Positions 37 through 26,217 of a DNA stretch of 26,217 bases are shown piece after piece (within the stretch, counting starts at the first letter, position 1; every line of letters begins with the position of its first letter). The notes beneath the pieces were generated by a model. It saw nothing but the letters and a program-made list of their open reading frames with translations, ran no database searches and was not told where the DNA came from. Made by a program: the position numbers and the translations under genes. Origin of the DNA: a virus. The DNA lies in the IMG/VR virus record IMGVR_UViG_3300030060_005444, positions 1 through 26,217 of that record. One strand, written 5' to 3'.

Positions 37-62
37 GAGACCCTTCACGGGTCTCTTTTTTT
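37..62 (+). terminator. Rho-independent terminator
   Basis: A perfect 7-bp stem (GAGACCC at 37-43, GGGTCTC at 49-55) closes the 5-base loop TTCAC and is followed by seven T. It ends the transcript of whatever gene lies upstream of the window. The loop coincides with the -35 element of the next promoter. Confidence 0.9.
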
Positions 63-72
63 ATGCTATAAT
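44..72 (+). promoter_or_regulatory. Sigma70-type promoter inside the terminator
   Basis: TTCACG (44-49), a 17-base spacer and a perfect TATAAT (67-72), with an extended -10 TG at 64-65. The -35 matches consensus only partly and lies in the terminator loop. It would drive the tail-tube-like gene and uvsY. Confidence 0.6.
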
Positions 73-22644: not shown

Positions 22645-22671
22645 GAGGGGTTTCAACACCCCTCTTTTTTT
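22645..22671 (+). terminator. Strong Rho-independent terminator
   Basis: GAGGGGT (22645-22651) pairs with ACCCCTC (22658-22664) around loop TTCAAC, followed by seven T. It ends the DUF262-like unit and separates it from hsp20. Confidence 0.95.
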
Positions 22672-22677
22672 GTGATT

Positions 22678-22686
22678 TGATATAAT
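22678..22686 (+). promoter_or_regulatory. Extended -10 promoter for hsp20
   Basis: TGATATAAT: perfect TATAAT (22681-22686) with the TG of an extended -10. No good -35 at the right distance; the terminator loop TTCAAC is 23 bases upstream. Start of transcription near 22693. Confidence 0.65.
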
Positions 22687-22691
22687 TAGTA

Positions 22692-22710
22692 GTGTCGCCG
22701 TAAGGGACAC
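22692..22710 (+). other. 5'-leader stem-loop of hsp20
   Basis: GTGTC and CC pair with GG and GACAC around a GTAA (GNRA) tetraloop, with one bulged G. It lies at the predicted 5' end of the mRNA and could stabilise it or act as a heat- or protein-responsive element. Confidence 0.5.
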
Positions 22711-22739
22711 AAACTAACACTCGCTGTAACAGGAGAACT

Positions 22740-23159
22740 ATGACAAACATCTACAGAGCTAAAGATTTAGCAGAACTATTTGACAAGATAACAACAAATA
22801 GTATTGGTTTAGATAGAACCATACAGAATTTTTGGGAAAGCACAAACGCAACATACCCACCATTTAACATAATTCAAGAAAACAATCACGAATCCACCTT
22901 AGAGATTGCACTTGCAGGATTCAAAAAGAAAGAAGTCAAGGTTTACACAGAGCATGGTAAACTAATCGTTGAAGGAAAAAAAGAAGAGAAAAAAGAAAAC
23001 GAGTATGTCCATCGTGGCATGGCTCAAAGATCATTTCAAAGAGGGTGGCAACTTACTGATGATGTAGAGATTAAAGAAGTTACATTTGAAGATGGTTTAC
23101 TTTCAATTAATCTTGGCAAGGTAGTTCCAGAGCATCATGCTCGTAAAGATTACCTCTAA
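22740..23159 (+). CDS. hsp20: Small heat-shock protein Hsp20
   Basis: 139 residues. A short N-terminal arm (1-40, ending PFNII) is followed by an alpha-crystallin domain: STLEIALAGFKKKEVKVYTE, KLIVEGKKEEKK, YVHRGMAQRSFQRGWQLTDD, and EDGLLSINL near the end. Hsp20 holds unfolding proteins; cyanomyoviruses nearly always carry one beside gene 43. AGGAGAAC before the ATG is a strong ribosome site. The typical I-x-I C-terminal anchor is not evident. Confidence 0.94.
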   Translation: MTNIYRAKDLAELFDKITTNSIGLDRTIQNFWESTNATYPPFNIIQENNHESTLEIALAGFKKKEVKVYTEHGKLIVEGKKEEKKENEYVHRGMAQRSFQRGWQLTDDVEIKEVTFEDGLLSINLGKVVPEHHARKDYL

Positions 23160-23184
23160 ATATATTTGAGTTCGAGATGGACTT

Positions 23185-23208
23185 GGGGATCTTGACGATC
23201 CCCTTTTT
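23185..23208 (+). terminator. Rho-independent terminator after hsp20
   Basis: GGGGATC (23185-23191) pairs with GATCCCC (23197-23203) around the loop TTGAC, followed by five T. The loop is also the -35 of the next promoter. Confidence 0.92.
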
Positions 23209-23219
23209 CATGGTATAAT
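23192..23219 (+). promoter_or_regulatory. Strong sigma70-type promoter inside the terminator
   Basis: TTGACG (23192-23197), 16-base spacer, perfect TATAAT (23214-23219), extended -10 TG at 23211-23212. The best promoter in the window. It drives two Sm-like genes and gene 43. Confidence 0.85.
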
Positions 23220-23239: not shown

Positions 23240-23587
23240 ATGACAGTCAAAATTTTATTGCTAAAATCTGGTGAAGATGTTATTTCTGATGTAAAAGAAA
23301 TGGTATCTCCTGATGAGAAAGTTATAGGATATTTTCTTTCAAAACCTTGTGTGGTAAAACTATTACCCAAAAAAGGTGAAGATAAAAGAGAGGCATCTGT
23401 GACAATGTATCCGTGGATGCCCCTTGCAAAAGAAGCAGAAATACCATTACCAACCGATTGGGTAGTTACAATAGTGACACCAATAAAAAAAATTGAACAA
23501 ATGTACACAGAGGATGTATTAAATGGAAAAACCACCGATCAAACTAATAATTTTAGTGAACTCAAAGCAGTTGATCTCTCAAATTGA
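23240..23587 (+). CDS. Sm-like small protein, family copy B
   Basis: 115 residues, function unknown. The shared family order is visible: VKILLLKSGEDVISDVKEM, KPCVVKLL, a charged loop with GEDKREA, YPWMPLA, then VVTIVTPIKKIEQMYTEDVL. It resembles the proteins at 3227 and 23523, with a longer loop before the PW position. It is the first gene after the 23192 promoter, with ribosome site GAGAGAAG. Its last 65 bases overlap the next gene in another frame, unusually long here. Confidence 0.72.
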   Translation: MTVKILLLKSGEDVISDVKEMVSPDEKVIGYFLSKPCVVKLLPKKGEDKREASVTMYPWMPLAKEAEIPLPTDWVVTIVTPIKKIEQMYTEDVLNGKTTDQTNNFSELKAVDLSN

Positions 23588-23783
23588 GGAAATAGGTGCC
23601 GATATTGGCCAACCAGATTGTAAGTTAACTGAACCATTTATTATTGGCCCTGATAGTACTCTTAGTCCTTGGTTGGTTGATGTTACCAGTGAAAACACTT
23701 TTATGTTATCATCTGATAAAATTCTTACACTTACTGAACCAAAACCAACTATACTGGAAAAATATCAAGACCTTCTTAAATGA
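23523..23783 (+). CDS. Sm-like small protein, family copy C
   Basis: 86 residues. Marks: IKLIILVNSKQLISQIEEIG, EPFIIGPDS, SPWLVDVTSENTFMLSSDKI, LTLTEP, YQDLLK. Against the protein at 3227 the PWL, FM, I/V-LT and YQ-L positions align. The strict Sm-type SG turn is NS here. The long overlap with the preceding gene is supported by the family match, which begins within the overlap. An ATGA overlap couples it to gene 43. Function unknown. Confidence 0.72.
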   Translation: MEKPPIKLIILVNSKQLISQIEEIGADIGQPDCKLTEPFIIGPDSTLSPWLVDVTSENTFMLSSDKILTLTEPKPTILEKYQDLLK

Positions 23784-26217
23784 AATTCTATACTAATGTC
23801 CAGTTAATTGGTAATCAGTTTCTGGTTCGTGGTGTTGAGAATGGAAAGAGGTATGCACATAGAGATGAATTCTTTCCTACTCTCTTCGTTAGATCAAAAA
23901 AGAAAACAAAATATAAAACATTAAATGGTGTTCCTGTTGATGCTGTCAAACCCGGAACTGTAAGAGAGTGTCGTGACTTTTTTAAAAAATATGATGAAGT
24001 AGAAGGATTTGAAATATATGGAAATGATCGGTATATCTATCAATACATATCTGAAAAATATCCAGAGAATGAAGTTAAGTTTGATATCAGTCAGATAAAA
24101 TTAGTCACACTTGATATTGAGGTATCATCAGAACAAGGCTTCCCTGATGTTGAATCATGTACAGAAGAAATACTTGCAATCACGATACAAGACTATACAA
24201 CGAAACAAATTACAAGTTGGGGTGTTAAACCATTTAACAACAAACAAAAAAATGTAACTTATCATTGTTGCCATACTGAAGAAAATTTACTTCGTACATT
24301 TATTAATCACTGGATGCAAGATGTTCCTGATGTGATTACTGGATGGAATATTCAACTATATGATATTCCTTATATTTGTAAAAGAATTAATCGTGTCCTT
24401 GGTGAAAAACTAATGAAAAGAATGTCGCCTTGGGGTCTTGTATCTGAGGGAGAGGTTTATATCAACGGACGTAAGAATACTACATTTGATATTGGTGGTG
24501 TCACTCAACTAGATTACCTTGATTTATATAAGAAGTTTACATACAAGGCACAAGAATCATATCGACTAGACTATATTGCAAAGGTAGAACTAGGACAACA
24601 AAAACTTGATCACTCAGAGTTTGATACCTTTAAAGATTTCTATACGAAAGGTTGGCAAAAGTTTATTGAATATAACATCATTGACGTAGAACTTGTTGAC
24701 CGTTTGGAAGATAAGATGAAACTAATTGAGTTGGCACTTACCATGGCTTATGATGCCAAAGTCAATTACAACGATGTGTTTTATCAGGTAAGAATGTGGG
24801 ATACTATTATCTACAACTATCTCAAGAAACGTAACATTGTAATCCCCCCAAAGAATCGATCATCAAAGGCAGAAAAGTATGCGGGTGCCTATGTTAAAGA
24901 ACCGATTCCCGGCAAGTATGATTGGGTAGTATCTTTTGACTTAAACTCACTGTATCCGCATTTAATCATGCAATACAATATATCTCCAGAAACACTTATT
25001 GAAACAAAACATCCAACAGTTACAGTGGATAAAATACTTGATCAAGATTTGACATTTGAAATGTATAAGGACAATGCTGTATGTGCAAATGGTGCAATGT
25101 ATCGCAAAGATGTTCGTGGATTTCTACCTGAGTTGATGGACAAAATGTATGGAGATCGTGTAGTCTTTAAAAAGAAAATGATTGAAGCAAAGAAAGCTTA
25201 TGAAAAGACTCCTACAAAGACATTGGAAAAAGAGATTGCTAGATGTAATAACATTCAAATGGCAAAAAAGATTTCTCTTAATTCTGCCTATGGTGCGATT
25301 GGTAATCAATACTTCCGCTATTATAAATTAGAAAATGCGGAAGCAATTACTTTATCTGGTCAGGTTTCTATTCGTTGGATAGAGAACCGCATGAACTCTT
25401 ATCTAAACAAAATACTAAAAACGGAGGATGTTGATTATGTTATTGCTAGTGATACTGATAGTATCTATCTCAACTTGGGTGATTTGGTCGATAGGGTATA
25501 CGAAGGTAGAGAAAAGGATGCTGCGAGCATCGTGTCGTTCCTTAATAAGGTCTGTGAGGTGGAATTTGAAAAATATATTGAGAGTTCTTACCAAACGTTG
25601 GCCACGTACGTAAATGCATATGATCAAAAAATGTTCATGAAAAGAGAGAACATCGCAGATCGTGGCATATGGACAGCAAAGAAAAGATATATCTTAAATG
25701 TATGGGATAGTGAGGGTGTTCGTTATGAAGAACCTAAACTCAAAATGATGGGCATTGAGGCAGTCAAATCATCTACCCCTGCACCATGTCGTAAGATGAT
25801 TAAAGATGCACTTAAGATAATGATGAACGGCACAGAAGAAGATATGATTGATTATATTGATACATGTCGTAAAGAATTTAAAAAGTTGCCACCAGAAGAG
25901 ATTGCTTTCCCAAGAACTGCATCTGATGTTGTTAAGTACAGAGCTCATTCTACAATCTATGCAAAAGGAACTCCCATACATATACGGGGTGCATTATTGT
26001 TTAATCACTATGTGAAGAAACACAAATTGGACAATAAATATTCACTCATTCAAAATGGTGAGAAGATTAAATTCTGTTATTTGAAAAAACCAAATATCAT
26101 TCATGAAAATATAATTTCATTCATTCAAGACTTTCCTCACGAGATTGGTCTTGACAAATATATCGATCACGATCTACAATTCGACAAGTCATTCTTAGAA
26201 CCACTCAAGATTATTCT
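23780..26217 (+). CDS. 43: gp43 DNA polymerase, 3' end cut by window
   Basis: 812 codons are present without a stop; the protein runs off the window edge, probably near its end (T4 gp43 has 898 residues, cyanophage forms are shorter). Family B replicative polymerase with 3'-5' exonuclease. Exo I is TLDIEV with D112 and E114, the same numbers as in T4; Exo II YDIPY (D195); Exo III NIIDVE (D302). Polymerase motif A SFDLNSLYPHLI (D387), motif B KKISLNSAYGAIGNQY, motif C ASDTDSIYL (D558, D560). No intron or homing endonuclease interrupts it. The start follows the Sm-like gene by ATGA overlap. Confidence 0.97.
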   Translation, partial: MKFYTNVQLIGNQFLVRGVENGKRYAHRDEFFPTLFVRSKKKTKYKTLNGVPVDAVKPGTVRECRDFFKKYDEVEGFEIYGNDRYIYQYISEKYPENEVKFDISQIKLVTLDIEVSSEQGFPDVESCTEEILAITIQDYTTKQITSWGVKPFNNKQKNVTYHCCHTEENLLRTFINHWMQDVPDVITGWNIQLYDIPYICKRINRVLGEKLMKRMSPWGLVSEGEVYINGRKNTTFDIGGVTQLDYLDLYKKFTYKAQESYRLDYIAKVELGQQKLDHSEFDTFKDFYTKGWQKFIEYNIIDVELVDRLEDKMKLIELALTMAYDAKVNYNDVFYQVRMWDTIIYNYLKKRNIVIPPKNRSSKAEKYAGAYVKEPIPGKYDWVVSFDLNSLYPHLIMQYNISPETLIETKHPTVTVDKILDQDLTFEMYKDNAVCANGAMYRKDVRGFLPELMDKMYGDRVVFKKKMIEAKKAYEKTPTKTLEKEIARCNNIQMAKKISLNSAYGAIGNQYFRYYKLENAEAITLSGQVSIRWIENRMNSYLNKILKTEDVDYVIASDTDSIYLNLGDLVDRVYEGREKDAASIVSFLNKVCEVEFEKYIESSYQTLATYVNAYDQKMFMKRENIADRGIWTAKKRYILNVWDSEGVRYEEPKLKMMGIEAVKSSTPAPCRKMIKDALKIMMNGTEEDMIDYIDTCRKEFKKLPPEEIAFPRTASDVVKYRAHSTIYAKGTPIHIRGALLFNHYVKKHKLDNKYSLIQNGEKIKFCYLKKPNIIHENIISFIQDFPHEIGLDKYIDHDLQFDKSFLEPLKII

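Follow-up and report, generated by a model that had tools for sequence, protein, structure and literature searches.

A putative fused terminator-promoter between hsp20 and gp43 in a cyanophage genome recurs across cyanophages

Can the same few bases both end the transcription of one gene and start that of the next? The question is raised by the gap that separates hsp20 from two small genes and gp43, the DNA polymerase gene, in a 26.2-kb IMG/VR virus record (the window, meaning the whole stretch analyzed), whose kin are cyanomyoviruses (Kyanoviridae) with approximately 65 to 70% DNA identity around this locus. The gap reads GGGGATC-TTGAC-GATCCCC-TTTTT-CATGG-TATAAT (Table 1). A sequence-only reading had described a 7-bp terminator stem closing on the loop TTGAC and, starting from that loop, a near-perfect -35 box 16 bases before an extended TATAAT. 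The sequence and coordinates were verified, as were the box (five of six positions), the 16-nt spacer and the TG. The locus has the GC-rich stem running straight into a T-tract that defines an intrinsic (Rho-independent) terminator, and hairpin and T-tract together fold with -12.7 kcal/mol (z -4.6). It equally has the two hexamers of a sigma-70 promoter within the usual 16 to 18 bp of each other (TTGACG-16-TATAAT), with TG ahead of the -10.

We consider it highly likely that these bases form a compact element, akin to the promoter-early stem-loop (PeSL) cassettes, in which a terminator and a promoter are fused, and which would end hsp20 transcription and start that of the gp43 replication unit with the host sigma-70 polymerase. 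Stopping hsp20 and restarting the gene 43 unit is the role that the sequence-only reading had proposed for the element, and it is the interpretation best supported by geometry, conservation and enrichment. Host RNA polymerase leaving hsp20 would form the hairpin and U-tract and release the transcript. As a duplex, the same DNA would be a host-type promoter, with the loop and the first base of the 3′ arm as the -35 box, the 3′ arm and T-tract as the spacer, and then the extended -10. The geometry of the parts (7-bp stem, loop of 4 to 5 nt, five to seven T, about 4 nt, -10) would place the loop 16 to 17 bp from the -10, and stop and start together would cost only about 35 bp. With a host-type promoter in the element, the gp43 unit would be transcribable independently of hsp20, which has its own start region upstream; the two small genes and gp43 would be transcribed as a separate unit, probably early in infection. 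Termination, initiation and their timing are what we infer from the bases. A polymerase on one signal would make the other unavailable: because a terminating polymerase would cover the spacer and the -10, termination and initiation would not occur simultaneously on one copy, and a passing polymerase may interfere with initiation. Cyanomyoviruses lack homologues of motA and asiA, T4 factors that redirect the polymerase during the early and middle phases, and their early promoters are thought to be of the host sigma-70 type (PMC2984593). Host sigma-70 promoters are therefore expected for their replication genes.

The element is not peculiar to the hsp20/gp43 locus but recurs in cyanophages. We surveyed 16 cyanophage records and the window, with T4, RB49, KVP40 and HTVC008M as comparators, over unmasked sequence that included coding regions (two records are incomplete at their last bases). 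Fused terminators were those whose hairpin contained a -35 box, defined as at least five of six matches to TTGACA, correctly spaced from a -10. Among 408 strong cyanophage terminators, exact TATAAT occurred 33 times at 8 to 12 nt past the stem end and was nearly absent elsewhere up to 70 nt. Where a -10 was present, -35 boxes were found at spacers of 16 (6 cases) and 17 (15 cases), with none at 11 to 15 or 18 to 23. Twenty of the 405 distinct strong terminators were fused, versus 1.6 expected from shuffles preserving stem and pair composition (n = 300, maximum 6) and 2.2 (maximum 7) from shuffling the downstream sequence; swapping in hairpins from terminators devoid of a -10 yielded 1.9 fused cases. 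Other thresholds gave enrichment in the same direction. Together, the shuffles, the hairpin swap and the spacer profile rule out that the TTGAC loop is there by chance. The enrichment over shuffled controls that the sequence-only reading had called for was thus strong, and TTCAC loops were found as well. Fused elements were present in 13 of the 16 other cyanophage records, and the 138 terminators of T4, RB49 and KVP40 included none at the strict threshold.

Orthologous gaps were collected independently of the element, using the downstream protein as the query, which gave 54 loci. The exact 19-mer hairpin and the T-tract, with TATAAT at an unchanged distance, are present in each of the 35 environmental relatives whose downstream protein is at least 64% identical. 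A separate scan found the 19-mer in 51 contigs, mostly at the hsp20/gp43 gap despite diverged flanking DNA; in a few contigs (e.g., L055, L061 and L062) its neighbor on one or both sides is another gene. A cellular source of the 19-mer was rejected, as a genome collection gave four scattered matches, none of them cyanobacterial. A larger hairpin of another type, GAGGGGTAACTGGC...CCAGTTGACACCCCTC, is found in more distant relatives and in cultured phages (SynMITS9220M01, S-SCSM1, S-B43, S-SRM01, Bellamy, S-SM2, L037 and L041), where TTGACA lies in the 3′ arm next to a 3-nt bulge and 17 nt ahead of the -10. Every variable stem pair of these hairpins is compensatory, and so is the pair made by the sixth base of the -35 box (U-A with TTGACA, C-G with TTGACG, A-U with TTGACT). 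Yet another stem, with the loop TTCAC, occupies the same gap in L048. Since the hairpins differ between relatives while the -35 box stays within them, the common feature is the coincidence of box and hairpin rather than one inherited sequence. A relative that BLAST suggested among Escherichia coli T4-like phages was set aside: the terminator after the single-stranded DNA-binding protein gene of G4507 has a similar stem, but its loop differs and its hairpin contains no promoter. No Rfam family matched the fused element.

In IMG/VR, the pattern TTGAC-N6-C-T6-N4-TATAAT was matched by at least 120 stretches, versus 15 for a control of the same composition, TTCAG. Part of this excess reflects plain promoters, and the relevant figure is the hairpin fraction: among the matches listed, a hairpin ended at the T-tract in 43 of 69 distinct sequences, versus 2 of 8 for TTCAG. 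Over all loci collected there are 36 distinct hairpin sequences, a few being trimmed versions of others, and about 30 distinct hairpins in IMG/VR have the geometry of the fused element. Annotated fused elements lie between genes of the same direction, namely, pstS and hli in Bellamy, an open reading frame (ORF) and hli in S-PM2, an ORF and a restriction endonuclease gene in P-SSM4, and two ORFs in S-SCSM1. In ACG-2014h (L423, KF156338, 181533 to 182033), the fused element lies within the start of a glutaredoxin gene as annotated, and the start codon of that gene is therefore probably misplaced, having been annotated too early.

Several points weigh against a fused terminator-promoter. Hexamers were scored against the E. 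coli consensus, and both the promoter and the terminator calls depend on E. coli-type hexamers. The 100% pairing in the hairpin alignment arises by construction, because the sequences were preselected as hairpin forming; the nine hairpins of the compensatory-change comparison were likewise drawn partly from the pattern scan, which makes their pairing percentages partly built in and leaves the compensatory changes among orthologous loci as the informative part. The stem GGGGATC is conserved beyond what terminator or promoter function needs, hinting at an extra constraint or a recent spread. About 95% of cyanophage terminators are unfused, and Syn9, P-HM2 and S-CAM9 have no fused element at the strict threshold.

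The element is not wholly new, as composite promoter-terminator cassettes are known from T4-like phages. In these PeSLs, which Arbiol et al. in 2010 and Comeau et al. in 2014 are said to have described, an intrinsic terminator stem-loop and a strong sigma-70 early promoter reportedly occur together between genes. The cyanophage element is like them, at the sequence level, in joining the two signals in one intergenic unit that recurs within and between genomes. In RB49, a complete promoter comes after many of the terminators, its -35 box mostly starting 16 to 34 nt past the stem, a tandem layout that we attribute to the known PeSL cassettes. In contrast, the cyanophage hairpin itself contains the -35 box and the T-tract contributes to the promoter spacer, an order that is not tandem; the cyanophage form thus represents a distinct fused variant. 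We found no description of it in a non-exhaustive search of the literature. The overlapping early and late promoters discussed as middle-mode control in RB49 and S-PM2 (PMC2984593) similarly compress two transcription signals of this phage group into bases that are shared or lie side by side, but they pair two promoters and not a terminator with a promoter. The PhoB box reported for S-PM2 gp43 was rejected as the same element, being located inside an upstream gene and away from the terminator.

The hairpin might instead be a mobile, PeSL-like recombination cassette, selected mainly as short homology for gene shuffling with the transcription signals as passengers, which would explain the invariant 19-mer. 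The few contigs with the 19-mer between different neighbors would fit, as would the identical fused hairpin GGAACCCTTGACAGGGTTCC of Bellamy and S-SM2, and PeSLs have been cited as mediators of shuffling in T4-like phages (PMC4503421). However, most copies of the 19-mer sit at one gap, the density of such elements in S-PM2 is low (PMC4503421), and genera differ in the hairpin that occupies the orthologous gap, which argues that the fused sequence was not simply copied. We regard a role mainly in shuffling as rather unlikely, and it is compatible with a fused terminator-promoter.

Another proposal couples the two signals: the terminated polymerase would stay on the DNA and be recaptured by sigma-70 on the spot, and hsp20 transcription would feed gp43. 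Bacterial polymerase often remains bound after termination and can re-initiate at nearby promoters (PMC6978322, PMC11347151), and here the distance between terminator and promoter is effectively zero. The likeness to the recycling described in that work is a promoter near an intrinsic terminator that a just-terminated polymerase could use; the difference is that recycling is an enzyme process and not a sequence element. Against such coupling, the evidence for recycling does not extend to cyanobacterial polymerase, the cited work saw mostly antisense restarts, and compactness by itself accounts for the arrangement. We hold coupled re-initiation to be unlikely. Equally doubtful is its extension to a terminate-and-restart device, in which polymerase ending hsp20, pstS or other genes would be recaptured on a promoter whose -35 box it has just transcribed, upstream transcription would feed the next unit directly, and promoter-bound polymerase would gate read-through; if true, phages would be exploiting post-termination recycling naturally and throughout their genomes.

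A third possibility is that the hairpin only terminates hsp20, with TTGAC as merely a favorable loop and TATAAT either incidental or part of an extended -10 promoter that does not involve the loop. Extended -10 promoters indeed need little of a -35 box, and a good one is lacking at 98 of the 118 cyanophage terminators that have a -10-like hexamer nearby. Such a loop would not account for TTGAC-like boxes occurring at spacers of 16 and 17 but at none of 11 to 15 or 18 to 23, for the failure of hairpins from -10-less terminators to reproduce the fused count, or for the box being in the loop of one hairpin and in the 3′ arm of the other at this locus while keeping its distance to the -10; we judge this explanation quite improbable. 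That the locus is only a promoter, its inverted repeat being a DNA feature or a weak terminator through which hsp20 transcripts read into gp43, would suit the shared direction of hsp20 and the gp43 unit and the uncertainty of predicting terminator efficiency from sequence, but the compensatory stem changes, the T-tract retained in every close relative and stem energies typical of strong terminators make it very improbable.

Table 1. Coordinates of the fused elements and neighboring features in the window
Feature	Position	Strand	Basis
Second fused element: hairpin 37-55 GAGACCC-TTCAC-GGGTCTC, putative -35 TTCACG 44-49, T7, putative -10 TATAAT 67-72	37-72	+	Sequence, fold
hsp20 (small heat shock protein), gene upstream of the terminator	22740-23159	+	ORF; phrog_432, PF00011
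Small conserved hairpin GAGTTCGAGATGGACTT adjoining the terminator	23168-23184	+	Kept in all close relatives, with a paired variant
Predicted terminator hairpin GGGGATC-TTGAC-GATCCCC, 7-bp stem, loop TTGAC	23185-23203	+	Sequence, fold; exact in 51 contigs
Putative -35 box TTGACG (5/6 match), loop plus first base of 3′ arm	23192-23197	+	Sequence; genome-wide enrichment at spacers 16-17
Terminator T-tract (T5), doubling as part of the promoter spacer	23204-23208	+	Sequence
Putative extended -10 TGGTATAAT: TG 23211-23212, TATAAT 23214-23219	23211-23219	+	Sequence; kept in all close relatives
Predicted transcription start, 7 nt past the -10	23226	+	Inferred from usual spacing
Downstream unit, gene 1, function unknown, phrog_431	23240-23587	+	ORF, family match
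Downstream unit, small gene 2, DUF6561	23523-23783	+	ORF, family match
gp43 DNA polymerase, phrog_262, continues past the window end	23780-26217	+	Family matches

The second fused element of the window (Table 1) has a -35 to -10 spacer of 17 and sits ahead of the tail-tube gene. Its -10 merges into a late-promoter-like AATAAATA (region 37 to 102), and early and late signals may therefore overlap there. A fused promoter at the terminator upstream of hsp20 (22645 to 22664) was rejected, as its -10 lies 16 nt past the stem and no -35 box is found at the right spacing.

Between hsp20 and the terminator hairpin (23157 to 23184), a late-promoter-like TAAATA overlaps the hsp20 stop codon, with a purine 6 nt on, and is followed by a near-invariant GTTCGAGATGG adjoining the terminator. 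The adjoining motif also precedes other terminators (L246, L248, L300, P-SSM2 and S-SSM7), and the region is possibly a tiny late RNA or a processing signal. P-SSM2 has a structured-looking sequence, CAGAGAAATACTGRCTGCGG..., after hsp20, and L074 has a similar one after the fused element (L074, 1538 to 1620; L096, 1365 to 1560); these regions had no Rfam match. The two small genes between the fused element and gp43 (23240 to 23783) have families in common (phrog_431/483, DUF6561/Sm-like), which suggests a tandem duplication.

The hsp20 leader (22681 to 22739) is strongly conserved in cyanophages and consists of a tetraloop hairpin, GTGTCGCC-GTAA-GGGACAC, whose stems and loops vary between phages, followed by CTCGCTnnnAGGAG. 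In the latter, CTC-G-CTTT can pair with the Shine-Dalgarno sequence with the G bulged, as in ROSE RNA thermometers, and the Shine-Dalgarno sequence was paired in 54 of 65 predicted folds. Rfam ROSE_3 aligned over its full length to 22689 to 22745, though with a score well short of the threshold (E 1.7; 15.7 bits versus 43). The leader is thus a candidate for a heat-controlled phage mRNA.

Early and middle control in cyanophages has been described as unclear (PMC2984593). The fused terminator-promoter indicates that opposite transcription signals can share about 35 bases, and that a major group of ocean viruses retains this arrangement through changes of the hairpin. The element offers a simple rule, with the loop or 3′ arm as the -35 box and the T-tract as spacer, by which candidate early promoters can be located in cyanophages. 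As natural terminator-promoter pairs at zero distance, these elements would also be suited to testing in vivo whether recycled polymerase restarts.
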